From assembly GCF_014876775.1 (NCBI RefSeq), contig NZ_CP062310.1, forward strand, positions 310,001 to 374,000: a stretch of DNA of 64,000 nt. The letters run 5' to 3'. Below the pieces are notes generated by a model. That model was given only the letters and a program-made list of their open reading frames with translations. It did no database searches and had not been told where the DNA came from. The translations under genes were made by a program, and so were the position numbers. Each line of letters opens with the position of its first letter. Positions within the stretch are counted from its first letter, which is position 1. This document shows positions 9,754-39,175 of the stretch, piece by piece. This stretch comes from Infirmifilum lucidum (lineage in GTDB: Archaea; Thermoproteota; Thermoprotei; Thermofilales; Thermofilaceae).

Positions 9754-9793
9754 ACTAGGGTATAAAAAAGAGAAAAAGAGAAAAAAACTTATT

Positions 9794-22104: not shown

Positions 22105-23130
22105 ATGGAGTCAGAGATTGAGAAATTCGCAAGCAAAGTCGGCTTGCGGCTACTCAACGGAGAAGAGGTTTACAGAGGCAACGATGGTGCAGTGTACAGG
22201 GTTCCCCTCGAGGTGAATGGCGAAGCCTTCATCGTCCACTCGGTTCAAAGCGCCTTAGTAGCGAGTAGGCCCGAGATAGTGGGCAGGAAGCTCGACTCGC
22301 TCGTCACGCACCCGGCGCGCCTGGTAGCAGGCTACTTGAGGCGTTCAGGCCTCGCCGATAGAAAGGTGGTGTTCATGCACGTCCTGAGGGGCTCTCAGGG
22401 CTACAGGCTTGACGTCGCGCTCAGAGAGGCAGGGTTTAGTGTGGAGAGCCAGTTTGTTAAGGTCGTCTACGCCGGTGGATTAGGCGAGAAGCACGCGGAA
22501 GCGAAGCCCCACGTAGCCAGCGCCCAGCTCACAGGGCTCTCTGGGGAGGAGAAGACGCTCGTTGTAGCAGACACCGTGGCGACTGGGAGGACTCTAAAGG
22601 AGGCGCTACGCTTCATGCTAGACATGGCGGTGTTTAAAGGTGTTCAATTCGAGAAAGTTGTCATCTACGGCTTCATCTCCGAGAGCGGTGCCAGGGTTGT
22701 GGGCGACTTCCTAGGGGAGAACGGGATAACACCTCTCTTCTTCGCCCTCGAAGACTTCGCCGCGCTTGCCTCAAACCAGTACGACATGCCACTGTACGGC
22801 CCCGACATCGGCCCAAGGGGTGTCGACGCCGAGAAGACTATTGCAGGGGTCTCGGTACCCGAGGCTCTCAGAGCTATGCTCGGAGAGTACTTCCCGGGGA
22901 TGGATCAGCCCGGCGACTGGAGCGAGAGACAGTGCCTCCTCTTCAACGGGTACGGGTACGAGCGTGGGAAGATAGGGGAGCACCTCGAGCGGAGCCTCAA
23001 AAGCCTGGAGGTGCTACACAACGCCGTCCGCGGGGCCTCCTGGTACGAGGAGTGGCTTGAAGAAGTCTTCAAGAAGAGGAGAAAAGGGTTAAAGAGAGCT
23101 ATGGGCGTTGATGCCTGTACCCCCGAGTAG
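22105..23130 (+). CDS. Phosphoribosyltransferase-fold protein of unknown specificity
   Basis: A 341-residue protein with a PRPP-loop-like motif VVADTVATGRTLKEALR around residues 150-170, preceded by VVFMHVLRGSQGYRL. The C-terminal third (LNGYGYERGKIGEHLE onward) matches nothing I recognise. It is larger than ordinary phosphoribosyltransferases and may be a salvage enzyme or a ligand sensor. Its end overlaps the convergent ECF ATPase gene by 32 bp. A second PRTase-fold protein flanks the other side of the ECF operon, hinting at nucleobase or nucleoside metabolism. Confidence 0.6.
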   Translation: MESEIEKFASKVGLRLLNGEEVYRGNDGAVYRVPLEVNGEAFIVHSVQSALVASRPEIVGRKLDSLVTHPARLVAGYLRRSGLADRKVVFMHVLRGSQGYRLDVALREAGFSVESQFVKVVYAGGLGEKHAEAKPHVASAQLTGLSGEEKTLVVADTVATGRTLKEALRFMLDMAVFKGVQFEKVVIYGFISESGARVVGDFLGENGITPLFFALEDFAALASNQYDMPLYGPDIGPRGVDAEKTIAGVSVPEALRAMLGEYFPGMDQPGDWSERQCLLFNGYGYERGKIGEHLERSLKSLEVLHNAVRGASWYEEWLEEVFKKRRKGLKRAMGVDACTPE

Positions 23131-24757
23131 GCGTGACGCCAGCCTCCCTACAGACTAAAACCTCGACTGGCTGTTTTAGGTGAGCCTCCCTCACGACGTC
23201 GTCGTCGCTCAGCACGACTCTTGGGTGCCCGTCTGCTATTATCCTCCCAGAGGCCATTACCACAAGCCTGTCGGCGTACTTGAAGGCCAGGCTGACGTTG
23301 TGCGTCACTACTAGTACTGTTTTACCCATCTTCGCGAGGGACTTGAAGATAGACATTAGGTGCTCGCTAAGCCTCCTGTCCTGCCCGGTTGTCGGCTCGT
23401 CTACAATGAGTATCTTCGGCCCTAGAGTGTAGACGCTGGCTATCGCTAGCCTCCTTTTCTCGCCCTTGCTCAGGAAGAAGGGGTGCTCGTCTTCGAGGCC
23501 CTCGAGGTTGAAGAGCTCTAGCGCCTCTCTAACTTTCTCCGCGTACTCCTCCTCGGGGACACCTCTTATCTTCCAGCTAAACGCTACCTCCTCCCAGACA
23601 GTCTGGTTGAATAGCTGGTGCTGGGGGTTCTGGTAGACGTATGCCACCTTAGACGAGAGCTCTAGACGCGTATACCTGCTAACTTCAACTCCGTCTATCA
23701 GGACAGAGCCTCTACTGGGTTTTAGGAGCCCGGCGATGACTTTCGATAGAGTCGTCTTACCACTGCCGTTAGGCCCCATAAGGGCCACAAGCTCGCCTGC
23801 TCTAAGGTCAAGGTCTACTCCCCTGAGGACGTCTTTACCTCTAGTATAGGAGAACCAGACGCTCCTGAGCGAGGCAACAACCCCTCTCTCGAGGCCTAGG
23901 GGTGATACTGAGTCGCAGAGGGGCTGGACGTTTAGCATGCCTTCCCGGGCAACCTTTAGGAGCTGGTCGAGAGTCGGGGGGCTCACCCTCAGCTGTTTTG
24001 CGAGCTCGAAGTAGTCGGGCGGGTAGGCCGCGTGCTCCTTTGCTCTCACACCTAGCTCGTAGACTTCGCTGGGGGTGCCTTCAAGCACCACTCTACCGTT
24101 GTCAATAACAACTAACCTGTCTGCAAACTCTTCGATGAGTTCTGGCTCGTGCTCTACCATGACGACCGTCGCCTTGAACTCGTCCCGTAGCCTCCTGATA
24201 GCCGAGACTACCTCCTCTTTGCCTACCGGGTCTAGATCCGAGGTGGGCTCGTCTAGGAGTAACAGTTTAGGCTTGCGGGCAATTGCTGAGGCTATTGCTA
24301 CCCGCTGCTTCTCCCCTCCCGAGAGCTGGTTAGGCGAGCGGCTCAGGAAAGTCTCGTCTAGGCCTACGAGGTTTAGAGCCCAGTAGAGCCTTTCCCTCAA
24401 CTCGCTCTCGTCTAGGCCCAGGGGCTCTAGGCCTAGAACTATCTCGTCTTCGACCGTACTCATCACAAACTGGATTTCCGGATCCTCGAAGACTATGCCC
24501 ACTTCTCTTGAAATATCGTAGACATCTGTCCTCGAGGCGTCGCGCCCGAGAACTCTGACTCTGCCGCTGAACTCTCCCGGGAGCCTCTGGGGTATTATTC
24601 CCGTTAAGGCCATGAGCAGTGTAGTCTTCCCAGAGCCGCTGGGCCCGGTTATTGCCAGGAACTCCCCCTCCCTAACGTCCAGAGTCACGCCTCTCAGGGC
24701 TGGCTCCCTAGACCCCCTATACCTCCAGTAGAGGTCTCTTACCTCCACTGCAGCCAT
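23099..24757 (-). CDS. Energy-coupling factor ATPase, two ABC domains fused
   Basis: About 552 residues with two complete ABC ATPase domains. Domain 1 has Walker A GPSGSGKTTLL, signature LSGGEKQRVAIA and Walker B LLLLDEPTSDLD. Domain 2 has GPNGSGKTTLSK, LSKGEKRRLAIA and KILIVDEPTTGQD. The fused EcfA-EcfA' form powers a group-II-type ECF importer. The ATG at 24757 (MAAVEVRDLYWRY) is preferred; an upstream GTG at 24769 is in frame. It overlaps the end of ecfT, indicating coupling. Confidence 0.92.
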   Translation of the reverse strand: MAAVEVRDLYWRYRGSREPALRGVTLDVREGEFLAITGPSGSGKTTLLMALTGIIPQRLPGEFSGRVRVLGRDASRTDVYDISREVGIVFEDPEIQFVMSTVEDEIVLGLEPLGLDESELRERLYWALNLVGLDETFLSRSPNQLSGGEKQRVAIASAIARKPKLLLLDEPTSDLDPVGKEEVVSAIRRLRDEFKATVVMVEHEPELIEEFADRLVVIDNGRVVLEGTPSEVYELGVRAKEHAAYPPDYFELAKQLRVSPPTLDQLLKVAREGMLNVQPLCDSVSPLGLERGVVASLRSVWFSYTRGKDVLRGVDLDLRAGELVALMGPNGSGKTTLSKVIAGLLKPSRGSVLIDGVEVSRYTRLELSSKVAYVYQNPQHQLFNQTVWEEVAFSWKIRGVPEEEYAEKVREALELFNLEGLEDEHPFFLSKGEKRRLAIASVYTLGPKILIVDEPTTGQDRRLSEHLMSIFKSLAKMGKTVLVVTHNVSLAFKYADRLVVMASGRIIADGHPRVVLSDDDVVREAHLKQPVEVLVCREAGVTPTRGYRHQRP

Positions 24758-25575
24758 AGAGACCACCACGCAAGCAGTACTGTAGTAGCGACTGCAACGG
24801 CCAGGAAGAAGACATCGAGCAGCGTGAGCCTGTCCCTGTGGTACTTGGCGGAGAACCTGGTAGAGGGGGCTATACCCCTGGACTCGAGAGCCAGGGAGAT
24901 TTCGAGGCTCCTCGTGACCATGAGGGAGAGCAGGGGTATCAGGGCGTTAGCATAGAGCAGGAAGCGCTTGGCGAGGCCCGTCTTCTCGAAGTCAACACCC
25001 CTAGCCATCATAGCCTCCCGCACGGTGAAAAAGTCAGATACGAAGAAGCTGAGCCCCCTGAAGAAGAGAGACGCAGAGACCGCCAGGCCTGCGGGCAGGC
25101 CTAGCCTGCGGAGACCCCACACAATGTCCCTGTCTGAGACTGTGGCTACAAATATCGTGGCTACGAGGATCATTGCGAGTATCCTGGCTATGAAGAAGCC
25201 TGCCTTGGTTAGGGCTGCGTCGGTGACTACGAGCTTCCACTCCCATAACCCCCTCTCTGCCTTCAGGCTGAGTAGTGTGGCCGAGAATAGGACGTTCCCG
25301 GGGACTTGGGTGAAGAGGACGAATGACAGAACTATGAAAGCCGAGAGGCTGATCACGAGTAGCAGGTAAGATTTTAGGAACCTGAGAGGCACCCCGGCAA
25401 CTGCTACGAAGAAGAGAGAGACCAGTATCAGGAGGAGTGTAGATGGTATGTCCTTCACGAATAGAACGCCTAGCGACAGAAAAAGTGGGACTAGTATCCT
25501 AACAGTGCCGTTCACCTTGCTGTAGACTGTAGGGCGCACAGGAGCCCCGGCGAGTTCCTCGAGTATAGTCGGCAT
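24739..25575 (-). CDS. ecfT: Energy-coupling factor transmembrane protein EcfT
   Basis: A 278-residue membrane protein of the EcfT/CbiQ family. Several transmembrane helices precede the two coupling-helix motifs: AMMARGVDFEKTG and LESRGIAPSTRF, both with the Ala/Ser-Arg-Gly core that binds the ABC subunits. It follows the S-component gene by 3 bp and overlaps the ATPase gene by about 20 bp. Confidence 0.9.
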   Translation of the reverse strand: MPTILEELAGAPVRPTVYSKVNGTVRILVPLFLSLGVLFVKDIPSTLLLILVSLFFVAVAGVPLRFLKSYLLLVISLSAFIVLSFVLFTQVPGNVLFSATLLSLKAERGLWEWKLVVTDAALTKAGFFIARILAMILVATIFVATVSDRDIVWGLRRLGLPAGLAVSASLFFRGLSFFVSDFFTVREAMMARGVDFEKTGLAKRFLLYANALIPLLSLMVTRSLEISLALESRGIAPSTRFSAKYHRDRLTLLDVFFLAVAVATTVLLAWWSLWLQWR

Positions 25576-25578
25576 CCT

Positions 25579-26373
25579 CTAGCTCCACCATCCTTCGACG
25601 TATAGCTCGGTACGCTTGAACACAGGAGTCAGCGCTACTAGTATAGCTGTTGAGATCACCGAGAGTACTATGAGATCCCCGATAACCCACCCCGTGAAGA
25701 CAGGCCAGAAGAGCTCAGAGGGCAGGGGCGGCGGGAAGTTGAAGACGGTGAGCGTCCCCGCGCCCCACAGGCCTGAAAGTACTGATGTCAGAATGACTCC
25801 CGCTATGTACGTGGCCCAGGTCTTCGCGTTGCCGACGAGAAGGCCGAGCATTATGCCTACCAGTGCTAGTGCTAGGCCTGTGTACACGCTTCCGACGTAG
25901 ATAGACGTGAAGGGTTCTCCGAGAGAGCCCCAGAGAACCTGTATTATGATCCCAAGCACCAGGATTGCAAAGCCCAGTGAAACAAACACTGGGAATAGCT
26001 TGGCGGCTCTCCCGCGTTTAACAGTGAAGTCTGGGTCTACTCGGAGGAGCCTGAAGAGCATGGCCGGGACAATTGCCTCGATAAAGTCTGCAAAAGACCA
26101 GACTGCAGACTGGATGACGGTGTACCCGCTCGGGTAGAGCCCCAGGAAGAAGCAGCTAAAGTAGCCTGCCAGCGCCCCCCACATCCCCATCCACACGCCG
26201 AGAGGCACGTACACTGCGGCCGCGACGTAGAGGGCTGAGACGCCGGGAGCCCCGAGTACGGGGAATATGAGGGAGGACAGGACGGCAAGGACGTATGCGA
26301 TAGCTGTTGCCAGCACGAACGATACTATGTGGCCCCAGGTCACTCTCCTCTTAGCTCGTGTTCCCCCCGTCAC
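25579..26373 (-). CDS. ECF transporter substrate-binding (S) component, unknown substrate
   Basis: A 264-residue integral membrane protein with about six helices, first in the operon S-T-AA. It has S-component features (Gly/Ala-rich helix ends; GVWMGMWGALAGYFSCFFLG) but is longer than most S proteins. GTG at 26373 is the start, with a TATA element 22 nt upstream on the minus strand (leaderless). The substrate cannot be read from sequence; flanking PRTase-fold genes suggest a nucleobase-, nucleoside- or vitamin-like compound. Confidence 0.78.
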   Translation of the reverse strand: MTGGTRAKRRVTWGHIVSFVLATAIAYVLAVLSSLIFPVLGAPGVSALYVAAAVYVPLGVWMGMWGALAGYFSCFFLGLYPSGYTVIQSAVWSFADFIEAIVPAMLFRLLRVDPDFTVKRGRAAKLFPVFVSLGFAILVLGIIIQVLWGSLGEPFTSIYVGSVYTGLALALVGIMLGLLVGNAKTWATYIAGVILTSVLSGLWGAGTLTVFNFPPPLPSELFWPVFTGWVIGDLIVLSVISTAILVALTPVFKRTELYVEGWWS

Positions 26374-26434: not shown

Positions 26435-26458
26435 GGATTTATCTTGAATATGATAACG

Positions 26459-27187
26459 ATGGGCTCTAGGAGAGTAGACGAGGTACTAGCACAGCTCGTG
26501 TGCCAGAAGGCCCTCCACGCGCTCAGGGCATACGTCCAGCCGCGCGTGATACTCGAGGCCCTAAGCGCGAGGGGGCTGGAGCTCTCGCCTGTAGACCTGA
26601 GCCGGTACCTGAGCGGGTCTGTCCTGCCGGCCCCCGAGAAGGCCTACGCTATACTTGACATAATCTACCGCAGCGGGCTTGTAGGGGAGGCCTTCCGGAG
26701 GGCAGTAGAGGTGGACTCGCAGGGTATAGTCAACGTGCCACTTATAGCCTACAACGCCCAGCTACTCGACCTCGCGGCGTCAGTCGCCTACGCCCTGTTC
26801 AGGGGCAGGGTCGACGTAGTCGTCACGGCGGCGACCAACGGCATACCTCTCGCCGCGCTCGCCTCCTCCTTCCTCGGCACCAGGCTAGCTGTCGCCAGGA
26901 GGGAGCGCGAGAGCCCGACGCTCAAGTACCTGGAGGCAGACCTCTTACTCAGAGACCCTCCCTCCTACGTCCACCTGTACATGCCGGCCGACATGCTGAG
27001 GGGCGGCGACAGAGTCTTAATCGTAGACGACTTGTTCCGCACGGGCAGGACTCTCAGAGCCCTCGTCAATATAGCCGCGAAGGCCGACGCACGGGTTGTG
27101 GGCGGCGTATCGATGGTCGCTCTCGGGGAGGCGTGGCGCGAGGCCGTGCCGGCAGGCTCTGAGTTCGTGGCCCTCTTGAGGCTGTAG
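26459..27187 (+). CDS. GfcR-like regulator: helix-turn-helix plus PRTase-fold domain
   Basis: About 242 residues. The N-terminal 60 residues form a helix-turn-helix (VDLSRYLSGSVLPAPEKAY). The remainder is a PyrE-like phosphoribosyltransferase fold with the PRPP loop VLIVDDLFRTGRT. This layout matches archaeal PyrE-like regulators such as GfcR, where the PRTase domain is thought to sense a metabolite. TTG 26444 and ATG 26450 are in frame, but the ATG at 26459 fits the TATA spacing. It is divergent from the ECF operon and probably its regulator. Confidence 0.75.
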   Translation: MGSRRVDEVLAQLVCQKALHALRAYVQPRVILEALSARGLELSPVDLSRYLSGSVLPAPEKAYAILDIIYRSGLVGEAFRRAVEVDSQGIVNVPLIAYNAQLLDLAASVAYALFRGRVDVVVTAATNGIPLAALASSFLGTRLAVARRERESPTLKYLEADLLLRDPPSYVHLYMPADMLRGGDRVLIVDDLFRTGRTLRALVNIAAKADARVVGGVSMVALGEAWREAVPAGSEFVALLRL

Positions 27188-28130: not shown

Positions 28131-29735
28131 TTATCCTAGAATTCCTAGGATTGCCAGGATGAAGGCTACGAGGAATAGTACTACTACGGCTTTGCCGTAG
28201 CTGTAGCCTTTATACTTGATGAGCCAGTATGTGAATAGCGTGAAGAGTAATGGGAGCAAGGAAGGCATCAGCTGGTCTAGTACCGGTTGTAGTTTTATGG
28301 CCTGCCCGCCATAGGCTGCTAGAACTATCGGGGTTGTTGCTCTGACGTATGTGGCTGTTATTCCTCCCATTATCGCCATTGCGAAGCCTGTTATCGCTTC
28401 CCTGAAGACTTTCAGCACCTCTCCCTTTAACACTTCCGCCATGGATAAACCGTATCTGTACCCGTAGACGAGAGTATAGTACTTCACAGCCCATGACACA
28501 GGTATCCAAATTAGGAGCGCTATTATCGGTCCCAGGATATTACGCTGAACACCTAGAGAGGCCCCCAGTAGGAATGCTATAGGCAGTATTGTGAACCACA
28601 TTATAGAGTCGCCTAGGCCTGCAAAGGGCCCCATGAGTGCAGTTTTAATGCCGCGTATTGTGTCCTGGTCTGCCCCCTGCTCTTCGAGTGATATGACCAT
28701 TCCGTATATCGCGTTGTGTAGGTGTGGCTCTGTGTTGTAGAACTCGTTGTGAAGCCTGAGCCATGACTTGATCTCTTCAGGGTCTTTTCGCAACTTCTTT
28801 TCCACTTCAAGCATGCCATGTGCGAATCCCGTTCCCATCATTCTCTCGTAGTTCCAGGAGGATTGAATAAACCATGAAACACCAAACCACCGCAGGAAGT
28901 CTCTTGCCGTCGCCTTGCCAGTTGGAGGGGTAACTGTCGAAGAAGATTCTGTACCTTCAAGAACCTCTCTGTGGGTAAAGAGGTATAGAGCAAAGATTAT
29001 TGAGCCAGCTATGAGTGCTATGGCTAGTAGGCTCAGCTTTAGGTAAGCGGCAAGGGCGAATCCGAGAATATAGAAGGCTATGTTTCTCCTGGAGAGCATC
29101 ATCTTCATCATTATTGCAGCACCTAGAGCTGGGAGCACAGCTCCAGCAACGCCCATAGCGTCCCAGAACCTTATAGTCAGGGGGCCTACATGGATCACTT
29201 GCAATGAATCAATGAAAGCCTTGACACCTTGAGGATTGATGGCAAGTGCTCCTACAAACCCCCAGATGGGGATGGCCCTGCTGAGGCCCCAAGGAACAGC
29301 ACCTACTATGTTTATCAACGGTATTGCTCCGAAGTTTCCTCTCTCGATTTCTCTGTCAGCCCAGTGGGTGAATACTGCGTCAAAAGACCTTACCACTATT
29401 TCGAGGTTCATTGTGAGAACTGCTATAGGTATAGCTAGAGGAACCGCGGCTTCAGGTTTCAGGCCTGTAGTTATGGCTACGACTACAGATGCTATTGTCC
29501 CAGTTGCAGCTTCGGGTACTGTTCCTCCACCGATAGTGAAGAGACCTGCAAATACAAACTCTAGAAGTGCCCCTACTACTAGACCTGTTATCGGGTCTCC
29601 TAGAATTAACCCTGTGAGCGTCCCAGCAACTACTGGTCTCCAGATGCCTAGGGGTGTTACCCATATGTAGTCGAGGCCGAATATAAAGGCGAGGAGGCCA
29701 AGCAATCCGACTTCAAAAGATCCTAGTGCTGTCAT
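28131..29735 (-). CDS. PTS permease, mannose family, fused IIC-IID
   Basis: A 534-residue membrane protein. Residues about 1-250 are a mannose/sorbose-type EIIC (PVVAGTLTGLILGDPITGL; FTIGGGTVPE; AIPIAVLTMNLE). Residues about 275-534 are EIID (WFIQSSWNYERMMGTGFA; FYNTEPHLHNAIYGMVI; MGPFAGLGDSIMWF). These are separate polypeptides in the usual bacterial systems; here they are one. It is the sugar channel, working with IIA and IIB encoded divergently. The start ATG lies about 25 nt from a minus-strand BRE/TATA (leaderless). Confidence 0.92.
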   Translation of the reverse strand: MTALGSFEVGLLGLLAFIFGLDYIWVTPLGIWRPVVAGTLTGLILGDPITGLVVGALLEFVFAGLFTIGGGTVPEAATGTIASVVVAITTGLKPEAAVPLAIPIAVLTMNLEIVVRSFDAVFTHWADREIERGNFGAIPLINIVGAVPWGLSRAIPIWGFVGALAINPQGVKAFIDSLQVIHVGPLTIRFWDAMGVAGAVLPALGAAIMMKMMLSRRNIAFYILGFALAAYLKLSLLAIALIAGSIIFALYLFTHREVLEGTESSSTVTPPTGKATARDFLRWFGVSWFIQSSWNYERMMGTGFAHGMLEVEKKLRKDPEEIKSWLRLHNEFYNTEPHLHNAIYGMVISLEEQGADQDTIRGIKTALMGPFAGLGDSIMWFTILPIAFLLGASLGVQRNILGPIIALLIWIPVSWAVKYYTLVYGYRYGLSMAEVLKGEVLKVFREAITGFAMAIMGGITATYVRATTPIVLAAYGGQAIKLQPVLDQLMPSLLPLLFTLFTYWLIKYKGYSYGKAVVVLFLVAFILAILGILG

Positions 29736-29823: not shown

Positions 29824-30708
29824 ATGGCTAAAAGAGTATTAGACTTAACTGGAAGAGAGTTAGCTAGTATAAGTGCAAGAGAGTTTAAAGATGCCGTTAA
29901 AGCCTCAGAGGGGAGAGTAGTCGCCGCAGAGGTCGTTGTCGCTTCCAAACCTCTAGTTGACGGAGTGTCTAATGTCGAGCTCGCCGCACGGTTCGGTGCA
30001 GACATCCTCATACTGAACATGTACGATGCTCTCAATCCTAGCGTTGAAGGTGTACCAGAGGTACTTGCGTCTTTACAGGGCATAGCAGAGTTTGTCCAGA
30101 GGTTTGTTGGAAACAACCTCGAGCCTGTTGAAGAGGGGTTGATTCCTGAGGGAAGGAGGCTCTCTGAGAAGACTGTTAAACGGAGCATTGAGCTAGGCTC
30201 AAGGCTTATAGTAGTCACTGGAAATCCCGGCCTCGGTGTTACCTGGGATAAAATAGCTGTGGGAGTTGAGAAGACTGTAAGTATTACTGGAACTCGTGCT
30301 CTCGTGTTCGGTGGTAAGATGCACAGTGGGGGGTTAAAAAACGAGAAAATGTACGATTTAGCGCTTATCGAGAGAGTAATGTCTAGTGGTGCTGATGGAG
30401 TACTTGTTCCAGCCCCATTTACAGTTCCTGGAGCCTCTCCAGAAAACATCGAAAAAGTTGTCTCACTCGCCGAGAAATACGACGCTTTAGTTATGTGTAC
30501 TATCGGGACATCCCAGGAGGGGAGTCCCAAGGAGGTTATTAGGAGTATAGCGTTACACTCCAAAGCCTGTGGATGTGATATTCACCACATAGGCGATTCA
30601 GGTTACTCTATGGGCGTCGCTATACCGGAGAATATTTTGGAGCTCTCACTTGCAGTTAGAGGCGTTAGACACACATATAAGAGAATATCAATGTCCCATC
30701 TGAGGTGA
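29824..30708 (+). CDS. PTS-associated TIM-barrel-like protein (PEP phosphonomutase-like)
   Basis: A 294-residue cytoplasmic protein with alternating beta/alpha pattern: VVAAEVVVASKPLVDG, FGADILILNMYD, RLIVVTGNPGLGVTW, ALVFGGKMHSGG, ADGVLVPAPFTVPG, DALVMCTIGTSQEG. I recall relatives annotated as PEP phosphonomutase-like/DUF7916 beside mannose-family PTS genes in Firmicutes. Function is not established. It is first in the operon with IIA, IIB and the dehydrogenase, so a role in handling the imported sugar phosphate is likely. Confidence 0.65.
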   Translation: MAKRVLDLTGRELASISAREFKDAVKASEGRVVAAEVVVASKPLVDGVSNVELAARFGADILILNMYDALNPSVEGVPEVLASLQGIAEFVQRFVGNNLEPVEEGLIPEGRRLSEKTVKRSIELGSRLIVVTGNPGLGVTWDKIAVGVEKTVSITGTRALVFGGKMHSGGLKNEKMYDLALIERVMSSGADGVLVPAPFTVPGASPENIEKVVSLAEKYDALVMCTIGTSQEGSPKEVIRSIALHSKACGCDIHHIGDSGYSMGVAIPENILELSLAVRGVRHTYKRISMSHLR

Positions 30709-30714
30709 GTAGAG

Positions 30715-31155
30715 TTGAAGTTGGTCTTGGCATCCCATGGAGGTCTAGGATGCGAGATGATAAGGGCGGTAGCTATGATACTCGGAGTCTCTGTGCTAGA
30801 GAAGGCTAAATGTGTAGAGTTACTAGAAGGCGAGAGCCTTGAAAACTACTATGAAAAATTGTCCAAGAGTGTGGACGGGGAAACAATTGTTCTATGCGAC
30901 TTGTTTGGTGGGACTCCCAGCAGAGCCGCACTTATGCTCTTACAGGAGGGTAAAGTCAAAGCAGTACTAACAGGCTTCAACATGGCCATGGTTATTGACT
31001 TACTATCTAATGGAGCCTCCAGTGCAGAGGACGCTGCGAAAAGCGCTAGAGACGCTGGCTTGCAGGGCATTAGGGCATTCATAGGCCCTAGCCTAAGTGA
31101 AGTTACGGAGAGCCCAGGGGAGTCTTTTTATCGAAAAAATAAAGAGCAGATTTAA
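30715..31155 (+). CDS. PTS EIIA component, mannose family
   Basis: A 146-residue EIIA of the Man type. VLASHGGLG contains the phosphorylation site His8, and VLCDLFGGTPSRAALML is the conserved second motif. It takes phosphate from HPr and gives it to EIIB. The TTG start is preceded by GAGGTGAG at about 30702-30709. It lies 6 bp after the previous gene. Confidence 0.93.
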   Translation: MKLVLASHGGLGCEMIRAVAMILGVSVLEKAKCVELLEGESLENYYEKLSKSVDGETIVLCDLFGGTPSRAALMLLQEGKVKAVLTGFNMAMVIDLLSNGASSAEDAAKSARDAGLQGIRAFIGPSLSEVTESPGESFYRKNKEQI

Positions 31156-31173
31156 CAGGTGAAGTATGTGTCT

Positions 31174-31677
31174 ATGCAACAGAAGAATATTTTCATTAGA
31201 ATAGATGACCGCTTTATACACGGTCAAGTGACTGCTGCCTGGACGAAAAAAGTTGGAGCTACATCTATATGGGTTGTAAATGACAAAATTGCAGGAAACC
31301 CAGCCCTCAAACAGCTCCAGATAATGCTAGCACCTCCAGGAGTCTCTGTCGCTGTTTTGAAAATCGAGGAGGCTGTTGAGAAAATTAAAAACCTCAAAAA
31401 TAATGAGAAAGTTTTAATGTTATTTGAGAACCCTGTAGACGTCCTGGCATTTCTCGAGAAATCGGGCGTCAAGGTGGATTCTGTCCAATTGGGTCAAATG
31501 GGGTATAGAGCTGGAAGAGTAAAAATCGAGAAAACATTCGATATTGGCCCCGAAGACCACAAGGCACTCTTAAAACTGTTGGATATGGGGGTGAAACTCT
31601 ACTACCAGCAACTTCCAGACTTTCCGCCAAAGCCTGTAGACATGGAGCAGAAGATTAGAAGCCTAAGACTTGGGTGA
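31174..31677 (+). CDS. PTS EIIB component, mannose/sorbose family
   Basis: About 167 residues. FIRIDDRFIHGQVTAAW holds the RxDxRxIHGQ phosphorylation loop with His16. The SIWVVND and VQLGQMGYR segments are also typical. The ATG at 31174 has AGGTG at the right distance; a GTG at 31159 is in frame but would place the ribosome-binding site inside the gene. It receives phosphate from EIIA and donates it to the sugar. Overlaps the following gene. Confidence 0.93.
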   Translation: MQQKNIFIRIDDRFIHGQVTAAWTKKVGATSIWVVNDKIAGNPALKQLQIMLAPPGVSVAVLKIEEAVEKIKNLKNNEKVLMLFENPVDVLAFLEKSGVKVDSVQLGQMGYRAGRVKIEKTFDIGPEDHKALLKLLDMGVKLYYQQLPDFPPKPVDMEQKIRSLRLG

Positions 31678-32798
31678 TTAAACTGAGGCTTCGAGTGGGC
31701 CTTATAGGTTCTGGCTGGTCTGCCAATGCCCAGGCTTGGGCTTTACGCGCTCTAAGATTTACCGTACGCGAAGACGGGTTCCCTGAAGTAGAGCTCGTAC
31801 GTGCTATGAGCTCAACTCCCTCGAAGATAGAGTCTTTCGCTAGACAGTTTGGCTTTAAAGAGTGGACAACTAAGGAGGGGGACTTTTTCAAGGGCGATCT
31901 TGATGTCGTGATAATAGCTTCTCCTAACAATACACACGCGTACTACGCGTCGAGAGCCATAGAATCTGGTGCTGACATCATTGTTGAGAAGCCTTTCACA
32001 GTAACAGTTGAAGAAGCAAGAGAGATTGTATCTAAAGCCAAGAAGAGTAGGAGGAGAGGCGCAATATGCCTGGTTAGCCGGCTTCTACCAGCCTCTGTGG
32101 TTACTAGAGAGTTGATAAGTAGGGGAGAAATAGGGGAGATACGAGAATTCAGAGCTGTCATAGCGCATGCAAAGCACGCTTATGCAGATACACCTTTTGA
32201 GTGGCGTATGAGTAGAGAGGTCGCAGGAGGAGGAGTATTTGCCGACCTTGGTGTTCACCCCCTAGACCTCTCAGAAAACCTTACTGGGCTTAAGGTAAAG
32301 CGGATATGGGGTAGGACATATACACTGGTAAGTGAGAGGTTTGACCCACGCGTAGGGCAAAAAGTGAAAGTAGACACTGAAGACGTGGGGTTTGCAGTAC
32401 TCGAGTTTGAGAATGGTGGTGTCGGTAGCATTGAAGCCTCTAAGGTTTCACCAGGCTTCGAGGAGCAAATGAGGATAGAAATTCACGGAGACAAAGGAGG
32501 TATCCGCTTCTCAATAACTGAGCCCCAAACGATCTATATTTTTAAGAGGGGAACATCTAGAGTCGAGAAAGTAACGAGGGGTTTTGAGGATATTTACCCG
32601 TGGCTTATATGGCCTGCACCTAAAAGTTTTGAAGGCTGGGTTTATGCCTACCTTATTCTACACAAGAACTTCATCGACAATGTTTCAGGGCTCCGGGAGA
32701 GCACTGTACCAACCTTGGAGGATGGGCTCCGGAGCCAAGTCCTTCTAAGTAGTTTCTACGAATCAAGCACAAAGGGAGAACCTATCGATCTAGAGTAG
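31674..32798 (+). CDS. Gfo/Idh/MocA-family sugar dehydrogenase
   Basis: A 374-residue NAD(P)-dependent oxidoreductase. The Rossmann motif GLIGSGWSANAQAWAL, IASPNNTHAYYASRAI, the family hallmark VEKPFTVTV (EKP), and GGGVFADLGVHPLDL are present. The GTG start overlaps the EIIB stop by 4 bp, so it is translationally coupled to the PTS and probably acts on the imported sugar or its phosphate. Substrate unknown. It overlaps the convergent ceramidase-like gene by 9 bp. Confidence 0.88.
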   Translation: MIKLRLRVGLIGSGWSANAQAWALRALRFTVREDGFPEVELVRAMSSTPSKIESFARQFGFKEWTTKEGDFFKGDLDVVIIASPNNTHAYYASRAIESGADIIVEKPFTVTVEEAREIVSKAKKSRRRGAICLVSRLLPASVVTRELISRGEIGEIREFRAVIAHAKHAYADTPFEWRMSREVAGGGVFADLGVHPLDLSENLTGLKVKRIWGRTYTLVSERFDPRVGQKVKVDTEDVGFAVLEFENGGVGSIEASKVSPGFEEQMRIEIHGDKGGIRFSITEPQTIYIFKRGTSRVEKVTRGFEDIYPWLIWPAPKSFEGWVYAYLILHKNFIDNVSGLRESTVPTLEDGLRSQVLLSSFYESSTKGEPIDLE

Positions 32799-34010
32799 AT
32801 CCACTATACTTTTCTTGATCTTCTCGAAGGAGCTCTCGCTAACGAACTGTGCTAGTCTTTCATAGAATACCCCCTCTTCTGGATTTGATAGATAACCAAG
32901 GTACCCGTTTGTATATGAGAAAAGTAGAAGGTTTTTAACACCTTTCTTTTCTGCAACCTCGGCCAGCTCCTCATAGACGTTCATGTGAACCTCAAACGGC
33001 ACTGTTACAATAGAAGTATCCTCCATCCTTAGAAGTTGAAGCCGTGCAATATCTCTTGAAGGGTAGCCCGGACAGTCTATTAACTTGCTGAGCAACATTA
33101 AGCCTTCGTGCATAGATTCGCGAACTCTGTTGCTCCCTGTAGCCGGTAACTCAGACTTTAAAGTTGAGAGTATTTCCTCTGGGTTGGTTAGTTCAGCCTC
33201 TACTTCTTCGTACTTGTAAGATATATCGCCGGATAACGTCGTGCAATTTTCAGGCTTGGCTTCGATCTGGTCAGCTAGCAAGTAGCCGATCCTCCGGGCT
33301 TCATCAAACGTCTGTGACTTACGCGTGAAACGCGTAGAAATATTGCCGGCTGCACCATTGAAGAAAAGAACACCCTTTAAAACACTAAGTGATTTCAGAC
33401 GTTCAACAGTGTAGCCGATGAAGTCAGAAGAGATTAAGAGGTTTTCGGGCCCCAGTACAGTGGGGTGGATACCTGTATTGAAGAGGAGAATTTCCGAGGA
33501 AGTAGTTGTAAAAATCAATGAGTATGCGGGCAGTGTCTGGTATCTCATGGGATTATTCCTGTCTGTAGCTACACCTTGAACTAAAGACTTGCAAAGGTAT
33601 ATAGAGCTTGGCTGGACAGGATTGGTCTCTGAGAATAAGTTTTCGATTACACCTAGGAAGTGCGAATAGGAGTCAGGATCGAAAACATCTTCGCAGAATG
33701 TAAGTAGAGGGGATCTAAACAGTGTGGCTGGAGCAGAGTGAGTGTGTGTTGCCGAAATAATCAGGATGTTGTTGCCAAACGTCTGATTAGCAATTCTTAA
33801 AATATCTGAGTACATTTGATTGTCAACTCCTAGGAGGTCTAAGCTGACAGCCACTACTAGTCTTCCGGAGTCTTCTATGATTACTACCCTTGCAAATATG
33901 TCGTCGTGCACTCCTTGAGACTTCCCTGTTCGCGTAATATACCCGGCCAGGGGATGCCCTACGGGGTTAGGCGGCGTGATAGGTTTCTCGGAGAAGCAAG
34001 CCCTCGGCAT
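32790..34010 (-). CDS. Neutral/alkaline ceramidase-family hydrolase
   Basis: About 406 residues. The frame is open to 34463, but that part overlaps glmS; the ATG at 34010, 5 bp after the GlmS-like stop, is the start. NPVGHPLAGYITR and IISATHTHSAPATLF (HTHS, zinc ligands) are hallmarks of the neutral/alkaline ceramidase family, zinc amidases that cleave N-acyl bonds. No signal peptide is visible, unlike secreted ceramidases. It is third in the operon nagA, glmS-like, this gene, suggesting an amidohydrolase for an amino-sugar derivative rather than ceramide. Confidence 0.75.
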   Translation of the reverse strand: MPRACFSEKPITPPNPVGHPLAGYITRTGKSQGVHDDIFARVVIIEDSGRLVVAVSLDLLGVDNQMYSDILRIANQTFGNNILIISATHTHSAPATLFRSPLLTFCEDVFDPDSYSHFLGVIENLFSETNPVQPSSIYLCKSLVQGVATDRNNPMRYQTLPAYSLIFTTTSSEILLFNTGIHPTVLGPENLLISSDFIGYTVERLKSLSVLKGVLFFNGAAGNISTRFTRKSQTFDEARRIGYLLADQIEAKPENCTTLSGDISYKYEEVEAELTNPEEILSTLKSELPATGSNRVRESMHEGLMLLSKLIDCPGYPSRDIARLQLLRMEDTSIVTVPFEVHMNVYEELAEVAEKKGVKNLLLFSYTNGYLGYLSNPEEGVFYERLAQFVSESSFEKIKKSIVDLL

Positions 34011-34015
34011 CCCCG

Positions 34016-35845
34016 CTACCTTGTGACGGCTTTCGTCAGGTAGCGTGGCGCGTCTATTGGTCTCCCGAGCTCTACGCCTAGCCTGTACGCGAGGAGCTGG
34101 AGTGGGATGGCGTAGGCTATTGGGGCTAGGTGCCGCTCGGCTGGCGGAGTGGAGATAACGGCTAGTCTTTCGCTCTTGATTTCCGCTAGTCTCCCGTCGC
34201 CCTCGAAGCCCACGGCTACTACTGACGCCCCTGCCTCGGCGGCTGACTGTATTAGGGGGTACGTTGCCTCTGCCGAGAGCTTCTCGACGGGTACTATGAA
34301 GCCCGTGAAGAAGCCCTCCTCTACGAGGACGAAGGGGCCGTGCTTGAACTCTCCGGCCTCTACGCCTTCGGCGTGGAAGTAGGCCGCCTCTTTGAGCTTC
34401 AGGGCGGCCTCTAGGGCTAGGGGGTATGTTATACCCCTGGAGACCACGTACCCTCCCCTGCACCCCCTTACCAGCTTCACTGCCTGCTTTGCCTCTTCGT
34501 CTACCCTTGGGAGTGCTTCCGCGAGGCGGAGTGCCGCCTCCCTTGCTGAGGATACTTTCTGGGCGTACGTGCTTGCGTCGGTCTTGCCGGCCTCCCTGGA
34601 GGCTCTTAGGGCAACGAGGTAGAGTAGCAACAGCGTCGACGTGAACGTCTTTGTGGCTGGGACTGCGAGCTCGGGGCCGGCGGCTATGGGTAGGTAGACG
34701 TTTGACAGCCTCGCAAGCCTGGAGCCTATGTAGTTCGTTACACCTAGTATTGTCGCGCCTCGGAGCTTCGCCTCGTACAGCGACGAGAGCACGTCGCCTG
34801 TCTCGCCTGACTGCGAGATTGCTACGACTAGGCTCCCCGGGCTTACGTTCTCGACGTAGTAGAGGGGGAACTCTGCAGCGCTGGTGACGACTGGGCTTAT
34901 GCCCACAAGCTCCGAGAGGTAATACGATGCGACCATACCTGCGTGGAGGCTTGTCCCGTTGGCTATTATGTAGACATCTTCCGCGCCGAGCACTAGGCGT
35001 GCGGCGAGCTGGAGGTACTTCTCCTGGACGCTGCTCAGCGTCCTCAGGAGGGCGTAGGGGGCTTCGTACACCTCGCGTAGCATGTGGTGCTGGAAGCCGC
35101 CCTTCTCCACGAGTGAGGGGTCTACATCTACGGGGGACCCGGGTTTAAGCGGGGCTTCCCTACCCTCCTTGAATACTCGGACTCCCTCCCTGCAGAGTAG
35201 TGCTAGTTCGCCTGGCTCGATGGCAACGTAGCTGTCCGCGAAGCCGTAGAGGGCTGGCAGGGTATTTGTTATGTAGAGAGTGTTGCTCGACAGCCCTATG
35301 TACAGGGGTGTAGCCTGGGTGAAAGCTCCTATGCACTCTGCGTCTCTGTCTAGCACTGCTACCGCGTAGAACCCTTCCAGGGCACCCTGGAGGGCTTTAA
35401 GGGCCTCGGTGAAGCTCCTGTCTTTTTCGAGCTCCTCCTCCACGAGGTGCGCCGCTACCTCGAAGTCGCTTCTAGACTGTAGTCTGTGGCCTCCCATTAC
35501 TACCCTGTCCTTGAGCCTCTCGTAGTTGCTTATCGCGCCGTCCCCAGCAACAGCCACTCTCTGCCTGCAGTCGGCGAAGGGGTGCGTGTTCTCGGCTGTA
35601 GGCCTCCCGTGTGTAGCGTAGCGGGTATGGCCCAGTGCTATGCTGCTAGTCAGCCTGTCTAGGCCCAGCTTCTCTGCGACGTAGTCTACCCAGCCGGCGT
35701 CCTTGTACACTTCCAGCACGCCGCCCTCCACGACTGCTATGCCGGTGCCGTCGTAGCCCTTGAAGCGCATCCTCTTCAGGCCCTCGAGGACGCTAGGCAC
35801 TACATTAGCGCCGCTCCTGCTTACTGCCCCGAAGAGGCCTCCCAT
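34016..35845 (-). CDS. GlmS-like protein with inactive glutaminase domain
   Basis: A 609-residue protein with the layout of glucosamine-6-phosphate synthase. The N-terminal Ntn glutaminase domain starts MGGLFGAV where GlmS has MCGIxG: the catalytic Cys is Gly. The oxyanion-hole NG is DG (VAGDGAISNYE), although HTRYATHG and SDFEV remain. A stop codon just upstream in frame excludes a longer start with Cys. The two SIS domains are intact: ANGTSLHAG, ISQSGETGDVL, PATKTFTS, GEFKHGP, and the C-terminal lid RYLTKAV. Expected activity is ammonia-dependent isomerase or, in the catabolic direction, GlcN6P deaminase, like the SIS-type GlmD of Thermococcus. It lies 2 bp after nagA. Confidence 0.88.
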   Translation of the reverse strand: MGGLFGAVSRSGANVVPSVLEGLKRMRFKGYDGTGIAVVEGGVLEVYKDAGWVDYVAEKLGLDRLTSSIALGHTRYATHGRPTAENTHPFADCRQRVAVAGDGAISNYERLKDRVVMGGHRLQSRSDFEVAAHLVEEELEKDRSFTEALKALQGALEGFYAVAVLDRDAECIGAFTQATPLYIGLSSNTLYITNTLPALYGFADSYVAIEPGELALLCREGVRVFKEGREAPLKPGSPVDVDPSLVEKGGFQHHMLREVYEAPYALLRTLSSVQEKYLQLAARLVLGAEDVYIIANGTSLHAGMVASYYLSELVGISPVVTSAAEFPLYYVENVSPGSLVVAISQSGETGDVLSSLYEAKLRGATILGVTNYIGSRLARLSNVYLPIAAGPELAVPATKTFTSTLLLLYLVALRASREAGKTDASTYAQKVSSAREAALRLAEALPRVDEEAKQAVKLVRGCRGGYVVSRGITYPLALEAALKLKEAAYFHAEGVEAGEFKHGPFVLVEEGFFTGFIVPVEKLSAEATYPLIQSAAEAGASVVAVGFEGDGRLAEIKSERLAVISTPPAERHLAPIAYAIPLQLLAYRLGVELGRPIDAPRYLTKAVTR

Positions 35846-35847
35846 GG

Positions 35848-36999
35848 CTACTCACCGTATACTTCCACTCCCCCGACGATTGTCTTGACTACTCTTAGCT
35901 TCTCGTCTAGGAGGACGAGGTCTGCCAGGTAGCCGGGCGCTATGACGCCCAGCTTGCCCCCTAGACCTATGCTTAGGGCTGGCGTAGTAGAAGCCATGCG
36001 AACGGCGTCAGCGAGGCTGAAGCCCAGCTTCACAATGTTTGCGACTGCCCTGTCCATTGTGAGCGTGCTACCGGCAAGCGCTCCTGTCTCAGCAAGCCTC
36101 GAGACGCCTCCTCTAACTACAATTTTCAGGCCTCCGAGAGTGTACTCCCCGTCGGGTAGCCCTGTCGCGGCGACAGCGTCTGTTATCAGGACTGTGCGAC
36201 CCGGGCCTGCTACTCTCGCAACAAGCCTGGTTGTAGCAGGGTGTAGGTGGATTAAATCGGCTATCATCTCGATGAACACGTTTGGCTGCTCTAAGAGCGC
36301 GAAAGCTACTCCCGGCTCGCGGTGGTGGAAGTGTCTCATCTGGTTGAAGATGTGGTTGGCCTTTGAGGCGCCTGCTAGCACGGCTCTAACAGCATCCTCG
36401 TAGGTCGCATCTGTGTGCCCCAGGCCCACGGTGATACCCATCTCCACGGCGCGCCTTATGAACTCGGTGGATCCCGGGAGCTCGGGCGCGACCGTGACCT
36501 GCTTGATGTGCCCCCTTGAGGCTCTGTAGTACTCTGAGAGCTCTGCGGTTGAGGGCTCCCTGAAGAAGCGGGGATCCATTGCGCCCCTCATCTGCGGGTT
36601 CAGGTAGGGGCCCTCTAGGTGTATTCCGAGTATCCTCGCGCCAGACCCGGGCTCCTGCCTCTCGATTGCCACAGCAAGTTCAGACGAGGCCTTCAGCAAC
36701 ACCTCGTGGGGTGCCGCGACGAGGGACGCCAGGAACCCTGTTACCCCGTGCCTCGTAACCTCCTGAGCTACTCTCAGGGCGTCTCCGGAGCTCGCGAGCG
36801 TGAAGTCTACGCCTCCGTAGCCGTGAAAGTGCGTGTCTACAAAGCCGGGGGCTACTGTTAGGCCTGACGCGTCTACGGTCTTGTCGCCCGTCAGGTTACT
36901 GCCCACGTCGCGTATTACCCCGGACTCTATCGCAATATCCTTCTCGCCTAGATCTAGAAAGGGTGTTAGGACTCTGCCCCCTCTAACTATAACCCTCAT
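35848..36999 (-). CDS. nagA: N-acetylglucosamine-6-phosphate deacetylase
   Basis: About 383 residues of the amidohydrolase superfamily. PGFVDTHFHG carries the first metal HxH, HLEGPYLN the metal-binding Glu, GLGHTDA and NHIFNQMRHFHHREPG the substrate His cluster, and LITDAVAATG the catalytic Asp. It removes acetate from GlcNAc-6-P to give GlcN6P. The ATG at 36999 follows an in-frame TTG at 37002. It is first of the operon with the GlmS-like and ceramidase-like genes, 106 bp from the divergent Enzyme I gene. Confidence 0.92.
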   Translation of the reverse strand: MRVIVRGGRVLTPFLDLGEKDIAIESGVIRDVGSNLTGDKTVDASGLTVAPGFVDTHFHGYGGVDFTLASSGDALRVAQEVTRHGVTGFLASLVAAPHEVLLKASSELAVAIERQEPGSGARILGIHLEGPYLNPQMRGAMDPRFFREPSTAELSEYYRASRGHIKQVTVAPELPGSTEFIRRAVEMGITVGLGHTDATYEDAVRAVLAGASKANHIFNQMRHFHHREPGVAFALLEQPNVFIEMIADLIHLHPATTRLVARVAGPGRTVLITDAVAATGLPDGEYTLGGLKIVVRGGVSRLAETGALAGSTLTMDRAVANIVKLGFSLADAVRMASTTPALSIGLGGKLGVIAPGYLADLVLLDEKLRVVKTIVGGVEVYGE

Positions 37000-37108
37000 C
37001 AAGTGTTGTTGCGACAGCAGTGCTGAAAAAGTTTCTGTAACAACGGTACTTATGCCCCCGCTACTGGTTGGCTAAAGGCATATCTTTGGGTTCAAGGCTA
37101 TAGCAGTG

Positions 37109-38827
37109 ATGCGGGTGAAAGGCGTAGTCGCGTCTCCTGGCATAGCTATCGGTAAGGCCAATGTGCTTAGGAAAGTAGACGTACTAGCCGTCCCCCTCGA
37201 GGCTAGGGCTGTAGACGTGGGAGTGGAGTCCGAGAGGCTCCGGAGGGCTGGAGAGGTGCTCGCTGGAAAGCTCAGTGCCTTGAAGGAGCTCCTCCCGAAG
37301 CAGGAGCAGGAGATACTCGAGGCCCAGCAACTCATGCTAGAGTCTCTCGTGTCGGAGGCCCTCGAGCTAGTGTCCCAGGCTGGCTACTCCGCAGCATACG
37401 CTGTCAGGAGCGTCTATGAGAAGTATAGCGAGATGCTCAAGCAGGGCAGCGAGCTGTTCGCGCTGCGGGCCCAGGATCTGCGGGATCTAGCGTCGAGGCT
37501 CGTAACACTACTACAGGGTGCTGGAGCAGAGCAGTACGGAGCTGGGCTAGAAGTGGCGATTGGAGACGAAGTAGACCCCATAGAGTTCCTCGAGCTCGTA
37601 AACCGGGGGCTTAGGGGGCTTGTCACGAAGAGCGGCGGCGTGACGTCACACGTGGCTATACTTGCGAGGCTCAAGGGGGTGCCGTACCTCATCGTGAGTA
37701 GCCTCGACCTGGACGCTGTAGCCGAGGGCTCGCAGGTGATCGTCGACGCGTTAGAAGGCTACTTTATCGCAGACCCGTCTGGCAGCGACTTGGAGAAGTA
37801 CGCTAGGCTTGCCCAGCAGTACAGCAAGCTTCTCGAAGTCTTCGCCAGCGAGGCTAGGCTGGAGGCTCTTACCCTCGACGGCCACCGCGTCAACGTCTAC
37901 TGCAACGTGGGGAGCTTCGAGGAGCTGCGTATACTCGACCAGTACGGCTGCGAGGGGGTTGGGCTCTTCAGGGTAGAGTTCGCCTACATGGCGCGGTCTA
38001 CCCCGCCGAGCGAGGAGGAGCTCTACGAGCTCTTCTCGAAGTCTGCACAGCTCATGGGTGGTAAAGCCCTGACGGTCAGGGCGCCGGACATTGGGGGAGA
38101 CAAGCCTGTCCCGTTCCTGGAGCTCCCGCGCGAGCAGAACCCCCAGCTGGGGCTGAGGGGTGCTAGGCTACTCTTCAAGTACAGGGAGGAACTCCTCCTG
38201 CCGCTCGTGAGGGCTCTACTCAGGGCTTCACGCCACGGCAGGCTTAGGCTGATGCTGCCCATGGTTAGTGCGGTAGAAGAGGCTGAAGAGTTCAGGCGAG
38301 TAGTCGAGGAGGAGAGGGAGAGGCTCGAGGCCTCAGGGGTGAGCACCGGGAGGCTTGAGCTGGGCGTCATGGTCGAGACGCCTTCTAGTGCGCTCCTCGC
38401 GGGGAGCCTAGTCTCGAGGGGCGGTCTCTCCTTCATAAGCTTCGGCACGAACGACCTCACGCAGTACGTCCTGGCTGCAGATAGGGGTAACAGCCTCGTA
38501 GCGTACCTCTACGACGAGCTGAGCCCCGCGGTCTTGAGGCTTATAGCCCAGGCTGTTAGGCAGGTCAAGGGTAGGGCCGAGATAGAGGTATGCGGCGAGA
38601 TGGCTTCGAGGCCCCTAGCGATCCCAGTGCTCCTGGGCCTGGGGGTTGAGAGCCTAAGCGTCGCCCCCCAGTTCGTAGGTAGGGTGAAGTACGTCGTGAG
38701 GAGGCTTAGAGTAGAGAACATCAAGAGGGAGGTTGGGGAGCTTCTAGAGTACGCCGAGGGGCCGGGCGACGTCAGGGAGTGGTCCAAGAAAGTCCTCGAC
38801 GAGAGCGGGGTAGCTGTCTACGAGTAG
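37109..38827 (+). CDS. ptsI: PTS Enzyme I (PEP-protein phosphotransferase)
   Basis: About 572 residues. It autophosphorylates from PEP and passes phosphate to HPr. The N-terminal helical HPr-binding domain is followed by GGVTSHVAILAR with the active His181, then the PEP-binding barrel: FRVEFAYM, LTVRAPDIGGDKPVPFL, NPQLGLRGARLL, MVETPSSALLA, FGTNDLTQY and VCGEMASRP with the active-site Cys. All key residues are present, so the enzyme should be functional. A GTG at 37106 is also in frame. Confidence 0.96.
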   Translation: MRVKGVVASPGIAIGKANVLRKVDVLAVPLEARAVDVGVESERLRRAGEVLAGKLSALKELLPKQEQEILEAQQLMLESLVSEALELVSQAGYSAAYAVRSVYEKYSEMLKQGSELFALRAQDLRDLASRLVTLLQGAGAEQYGAGLEVAIGDEVDPIEFLELVNRGLRGLVTKSGGVTSHVAILARLKGVPYLIVSSLDLDAVAEGSQVIVDALEGYFIADPSGSDLEKYARLAQQYSKLLEVFASEARLEALTLDGHRVNVYCNVGSFEELRILDQYGCEGVGLFRVEFAYMARSTPPSEEELYELFSKSAQLMGGKALTVRAPDIGGDKPVPFLELPREQNPQLGLRGARLLFKYREELLLPLVRALLRASRHGRLRLMLPMVSAVEEAEEFRRVVEEERERLEASGVSTGRLELGVMVETPSSALLAGSLVSRGGLSFISFGTNDLTQYVLAADRGNSLVAYLYDELSPAVLRLIAQAVRQVKGRAEIEVCGEMASRPLAIPVLLGLGVESLSVAPQFVGRVKYVVRRLRVENIKREVGELLEYAEGPGDVREWSKKVLDESGVAVYE

Positions 38828-38829
38828 GG

Positions 38830-39105
38830 CTACTTGTCCTGCTCCGGGAGGACTTCCAGTAGGAGCTTCGTGAGGTGCTCGATCGCCTTGTCCTCGTCCG
38901 GCCCCTCGGCTACAATCTCTATCTCGTCCCCCATGTCTATGCCTAGCGACAACAGCTGGAGTATGTTCTTCGAGTCCGCGGACTTGCCGTTCTTCCTCAC
39001 AACTATCCTCGAGGAGAAGCTCTTAGCGTTCTGGACGAAGATGGCTGCCGGCCTGGCGTGGAGCCCGCTCTTGTTCACAACCTTCAGCCTGACCTCCCGA
39101 GTCAT
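38830..39105 (-). CDS. ptsH: PTS phosphocarrier HPr
   Basis: A 91-residue HPr. SGLHARPAA contains the phosphorylation site His16. At the position of the regulatory Ser46 of Gram-positive HPr (KSI) this protein has KNI (Asn47), so HPr-kinase-type regulation is not expected. MSLG-like LLSLGIDMG is retained. It is convergent with ptsI, stops 2 bp apart, so the two general PTS proteins are transcribed separately, unlike the usual ptsHI operon. Confidence 0.95.
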   Translation of the reverse strand: MTREVRLKVVNKSGLHARPAAIFVQNAKSFSSRIVVRKNGKSADSKNILQLLSLGIDMGDEIEIVAEGPDEDKAIEHLTKLLLEVLPEQDK

Positions 39106-39175
39106 CACAGTAAGGGGACGGTGCAGCCTTAAACGCTTTTCTCAGTAATCTTTAATAGAACTTCATGGAGGGTTT

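Follow-up and report, generated by a model that had tools for sequence, protein, structure and literature searches.

The 64,000-nucleotide stretch of Infirmifilum lucidum DNA analysed here (the window) encodes on its minus strand, at 34016–35845, a full-length homologue of GlmS in which the glutaminase half is dead and the SIS half is intact. We refer to this protein as GlmSx. Immediately upstream, and also on the minus strand (35848–37002), is nagA, which encodes an N-acetylglucosamine-6-phosphate deacetylase (TIGR00221, 299.6 bits against a cut-off of 225.65) and whose stop lies 2 bp before the glmSx start. The question that this locus raises is what a protein built like a glucosamine-6-phosphate (GlcN6P) synthase, and apparently disabled as one, does beside NagA.

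The two halves of GlmSx

The glmSx ORF begins with an ATG and encodes 609 residues with the N terminus MGGLFGAVSRSG, of which residues 1–240 form the glutaminase (GAT) half and residues 251–608 the SIS isomerase half. Its first codons are ATG GGA GGC, such that Met-Gly (ATG GGA, 35840–35845, minus strand) stands in place of the Met-Cys of GlmS. The in-frame sequence leading into the start reads TGA GTA GCC ATG. Because of this TGA, three codons upstream, there is no earlier start and none that could supply a Cys, as a previous sequence-only reading of the locus had argued, and a longer, Cys-containing form of the protein was excluded. The Pfam scan of GlmSx identified both SIS domains and the GATase fold, and no match to PF01182 (NagB, Glucosamine_iso).

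Alignment to E. coli GlmS (2j6h/4amv) bore out the two substitutions that this reading had reported. Cys1 corresponds to Gly2, and Asn98-Gly99 to Asp102-Gly103, with the codon for Asp102, at the position of the oxyanion Asn98, at 35540–35542 (minus strand). The alignment also revealed a substitution that the reading had not mentioned, as Trp74 of the E. coli enzyme corresponds to Tyr76 of GlmSx. Trp74 is the gate of the ammonia channel in GlmS/GFAT (PMC7000685, PMC7948480). Ala602 (E. coli numbering), also of the ammonia channel, is Thr in the window protein. The SIS half was intact, as had been claimed, with all of its catalytic residues kept (Thr298, Ser299, Ser344, Gln345, Ser346, Thr349, Lys485, Glu486, His502, and Lys605).

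Homologues were sought in 61 relatives, in 81 genomes from the class and in 398 genomes sampled from the phylum, and 111 full-length homologues were aligned. GlmSx was found to be one clade of 51 homologues spread over Thermoproteota, occurring in many families of the phylum, including the genus of Thermofilum sp. NZ13 (L010), with identities to the window protein down to 37%. In a tree of the SIS half these proteins fell on a single branch (support 99), two partial members included. A check of the nucleophile in a GlmS-family alignment had been proposed, and all 50 GlmSx proteins readable at the N terminus had Gly at the Cys1 position, as well as Asp at the Asn98 position. Trp74 was replaced in 51 of 51 (by Tyr, Phe or Ser in the 50 readable proteins); the 51st has a cut N terminus, yet Tyr at the Trp74 site and Asp at the Asn98 site could be read. 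C, W and N occupied these three positions in each of the 59 Cys-bearing GlmS proteins compared. A search of plasmids identified, among the matches listed, only GlmS homologues of less than 37% identity. One GlmSx, at 7992–9821 (+) of locus L008, reads GGVCGV, with a Cys three residues past the nucleophile position and Gly still at the Cys1 position; it is encoded directly after ptsI, inside a PTS cluster.

The recurrence of Gly and Asp in 50 homologues from independently assembled genomes indicated that the change in the window was neither chance nor a base error, and a sequencing error in glmSx was rejected on this basis. Decay of the gene was considered alongside error, as the conservation of the GAT half is relaxed and there is a SIS-only relative in one genome (G050) and broken copies in another (G017). 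Intact ORFs with the same two substitutions across the clade, and a strongly conserved SIS half, refute both ideas, and we give them practically no weight. The SIS-only relative in G050 (L065:1445–2470, +) lacks the GAT half and is 97.6% identical over 331 residues to the SIS half of a full-length protein in L095. It may be either a short form that still functions or a gene in decay. Because it may be decaying and its genome has no NagA, we did not take it as demonstrating that the protein can do without its GAT half.

The two halves of GlmSx were conserved to different degrees. In the GAT half, 24 columns were at least 95% conserved among GlmSx proteins versus 58 among canonical GlmS, and the corresponding numbers for the SIS half were 72 and 77. 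The halves of canonical GlmS evolve at an approximately equal rate (GAT/SIS distance ratio 0.88–1.03), whereas the GAT half of GlmSx evolves faster (1.06–1.67). The Ala602 site, which like that of Trp74 is invariant in 59 canonical GlmS, is A, V, S or T in GlmSx, and the Arg-Asn of the C-terminal PRN, invariant in GlmS, is relaxed. By contrast, Ser303, Ser347, Gln348, Ser349, Glu488, His504, and Lys603 (E. coli numbering) are invariant across GlmSx. With a relaxed GAT half and channel and invariant SIS catalytic residues, this is the pattern of an enzyme that would no longer make or channel ammonia and would still act on a sugar phosphate.

The window genome also carries an intact GlmS with its Cys (L007, 5586–7403; N terminus MCGIVG). 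A canonical GlmS was identified in 31 of the 32 other GlmSx genomes checked, with none seen in the remaining genome (G356), and the idea that GlmSx is the sole GlmS of the cell was therefore rejected. Together, the clade-wide loss of the nucleophile, oxyanion Asn and channel Trp and the presence of a separate intact GlmS make glutamine-dependent synthesis by GlmSx very unlikely, in agreement with the earlier claim of a dead glutaminase.

Association of GlmSx with NagA

The suggestion that GlmSx works in amino-sugar breakdown after NagA held beyond the window. Within the class, NagA was present in 19 of 20 GlmSx genomes versus 4 of 61 others (p about 1e-13), and in the phylum sample in 37 of 49 versus 24 of 349 (p about 1e-25). 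After correction for relatedness, with the GlmS tree as a stand-in for the species tree, there were about seven independent pairs, all in the same direction of GlmSx with NagA (median p 0.03). In addition, nagA directly adjoins glmSx in 17 loci and in three orientations. In Thermofilum relatives the two genes share a strand, whereas they are arranged head to head in seven genomes (G228, G310, and G333 among them) and tail to tail in four others (G119 and G213 among them). G287 and G333 were assigned as head to head by search coordinates, as over-extended starts had misled the automatic label. The re-formation of this adjacency in three orientations argues for its being kept by selection, rather than through inheritance of one arrangement. 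In the MAG G017, nagA and glmSx are both broken pieces (L163; G017:C23:12158–12577), and both genes are intact in its two congeners.

Classical NagB (PF01182) was identified neither in the 61 relatives searched nor in the window genome. A short SIS protein (328–388 residues) matching the GlmD model was present in 14 of 24 genomes that have NagA and lack GlmSx, versus none of 12 control genomes lacking both (p 7e-4); no such protein was seen in the other 10 at the cut-off used. Its gene is separated from nagA by 2 bp in G157 and is close to nagA in G021 and G023. Matches of the short proteins tested to the GlmD and NagB-II models were under the curated cut-offs. Based on the presence of a GlmD-like protein beside NagA where GlmSx is absent, and on the lack of NagB in the genomes searched, GlmSx occupies the slot expected for a GlcN6P deaminase. 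Its constant company with NagA suggests that GlmSx most likely runs backwards, breaking down GlcN6P, and from these sequence comparisons we consider it probable that GlmSx descends from GlmS and serves as a GlcN6P deaminase in catabolism.

The main rival explanation is that GlmSx is an ammonia-dependent GlcN6P synthase, which would take free ammonium in place of glutamine and thereby serve as an anabolic bypass where hot springs are rich in ammonia. The intact SIS catalytic site is consistent with such an activity, and an ammonium transporter gene lies beside glmSx in two genomes. In G362 the transporter (TIGR00836, over cut-off) adjoins glmSx, and in G350, whose glmSx neighbourhood is related to that of G362, the neighbour is a putative ammonium transporter (L177:5431–6636, +, and L178). 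This neighbour could hint at the use of ammonia and not its release. GlmSx also occurs without NagA, in 12 of the 49 GlmSx genomes of the phylum sample, eight of which belong to one Desulfurococcaceae-like family (f16). PIG-L was absent from 11 of these 12 genomes and so was not supported as an alternative deacetylase in them. Either GlcN6P is reached by another route in these genomes, or the role of GlmSx is wider or differs there. However, glutamine-dependent GlmS is retained in almost all of the GlmSx genomes checked, most GlmSx genomes show the link with NagA, the channel and gate residues are relaxed and the transporter is a neighbour in two genomes only. We therefore consider an ammonia-dependent synthase unlikely.

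Substrate, proposed reaction and predicted fold

The nagA-glmSx pair is flanked by PTS genes. These encode a 534-residue mannose-family permease that is an EIIC-EIID fusion (28131–29735, −; PF03609 and PF03613), a mannose-family EIIA (30715–31155, +; PF03610), a mannose/sorbose-family EIIB (31159–31677, +; PF03830), enzyme I (PtsI; 37106–38827, +; TIGR01417, 414 bits, over cut-off) and the phosphocarrier HPr (38830–39108, −; TIGR01003, over cut-off). A DUF7916 protein in the cluster (29824–30708, +; PF25509, 344 bits) is conserved in L081, L082, and L083, and a Gfo/Idh/MocA family oxidoreductase is encoded at 31674–32798 (+; PF01408, PF02894). Among the 61 relatives, EIID was restricted to this genus; the fused permease has a 581-residue relative in L008. 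A PTS of Thermofilum pendens has been mentioned previously (PMC2678158).

The gene next downstream of glmSx (32790–34010, −; start inferred as the ATG at 34008–34010) encodes a neutral/alkaline-ceramidase-like protein (PF04734, E 6e-18), which recurs in L009, L081, L082, L083, and L161. PF04734 is an amidase family, and an N-acyl amino sugar may be the substrate of this protein. The protein encoded at 26444–27187 (+) ends in a phosphoribosyltransferase domain (PF00156) and may begin with an HTH; a relative of it is encoded near glmSx in eight genomes, among them the four of genus g25. Beside the PTS locus, at 23099–26373 (−), is an apparent ECF-type importer with a membrane protein, a CbiQ-like T component (PF02361) and a double ATPase.

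Alternatively, GlmSx could be a deaminase/isomerase acting on a different amino-sugar phosphate, such as GalN6P or ManN6P, with an Aga-like PTS supplying the substrate. Aga-type models match EIIC and EIIA about as well as mannose models do, although all matches are below cut-off, and AgaS is likewise a SIS enzyme (PMC3668189). We regard this role as decidedly unlikely, as the deacetylase is over the NagA model cut-off, outside Thermofilaceae the NagA-GlmSx pair is mostly not accompanied by a PTS, and the sugar-binding residues of GlmS are kept in GlmSx.

In the scheme that we propose for a deaminase, the mannose-type PTS would import GlcNAc, or a closely related sugar, as GlcNAc-6-P, from which NagA, based on its family assignment, would remove acetate to produce GlcN6P. 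The SIS half of GlmSx would then open the ring by means of His502 and transfer a proton between C2 and C1 by means of Glu486. Lys605 and water would complete the reaction, releasing ammonia and yielding fructose-6-phosphate; this would be the half-reaction of GlmS run in reverse. We propose this reverse isomerase half-reaction because the equivalents of Glu488, His504, and Lys603 are intact and there is no ammonia source. The GAT half would have a structural or regulatory purpose and would not supply ammonia.

A phosphoglucose isomerase (F6P/G6P), or a regulatory pseudoenzyme that binds canonical GlmS, would also account for the retention of a dead GAT half, and GFAT has been reported to show F6P to G6P isomerase activity when glutamine is absent (PMC7948480). 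However, neither idea predicts the association with NagA, and a phosphoglucose/phosphomannose isomerase, scoring over cut-off, is already encoded in the window genome (L006). Both are, in our opinion, very improbable.

The AlphaFold model of the full GlmSx chain had a mean pLDDT of 93.5, with high confidence in the GAT half. Compared with full-length GlmS/GFAT structures, the model gave TM scores of 0.51–0.58 among the matches listed, whereas its SIS half alone gave about 0.9. An identically produced model of the genome's own canonical paralogue gave 0.84–0.91 to 1jxa, 2j6h and human GFAT, and 0.53–0.56 to 3ooj. The low full-length scores despite the matching SIS half, together with the match of the canonical paralogue, point to a GAT half of GlmSx that is predicted to dock unlike that of a synthase, although a monomer prediction is only suggestive of this.

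Arg73, Gly99, and Asp123 (E. coli numbering) are invariant in GlmSx; in GlmS structures these residues hold the amino-acid part of glutamine. Based on their retention, the clade-specific invariant Asp98 and Gly1 and the altered predicted docking, we speculate that the dead GAT half may be a ligand-sensing regulatory domain, so that deaminase activity could respond to glutamate, glutamine or ammonium. We consider this less likely than not.

Comparison with known enzymes

SIS-type GlcN6P deaminases are already known. To our knowledge, there is no known case of a full-length GlmS turned into a GlcN6P deaminase, which is what GlmSx would be if our proposal is confirmed. We found no description of a GlmS of this type in the literature searched, which mostly excluded subscription journals, so a prior mention is possible. 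GlmSx would be the likely enzyme for the missing GlcN6P deamination step of GlcNAc breakdown across Thermoproteota, and an example of an amidotransferase that acquired a catabolic role through loss of function in its ammonia-producing half, while the domain itself was retained.

GlmSx resembles GlmS/GFAT (TIGR01135) in having a GAT domain, two SIS domains and the C-terminal tail, with the same catalytic residues for F6P/GlcN6P. It differs in lacking Cys1, Asn98, and Trp74, in its relaxed GAT half and in the predicted docking of GAT to SIS. The window protein scored 473.7 bits against the NCBIfam glmS model TIGR01135 (cut-off 418.05), which matched 42 of 42 aligned GlmSx members. As it lies above the cut-off of this equivalog model, GlmSx is probably mis-annotated as a synthase in databases, a label that reflects homology but misleads as an equivalog name. 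The signature of Gly, Asp and one of Tyr, Phe or Ser would serve as a simple rule to separate GlmSx from GlmS.

With GlmD, the SIS-type GlcN6P deaminase of Thermococcales, GlmSx has in common the SIS isomerase fold and the proposed reaction, and short GlmD-like proteins take its place beside NagA in related archaea. GlmD is SIS-only (a 323-position model), whereas GlmSx retains a GAT half of 240 residues and clusters separately from the short SIS proteins in the tree; the score of GlmSx against the GlmD model NF041128 was 72.6 bits, under the cut-off of 580. NagB-II of Shewanella and others (PDB 8eol) is similar to GlmSx in its SIS fold, in the reaction proposed and in its position after NagA, but has no GAT domain, and GlmSx scored 117.3 bits against the model NF046059 (cut-off 430). 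Classical NagB (PF01182) has an unrelated fold and would resemble GlmSx in pathway position and proposed reaction only.
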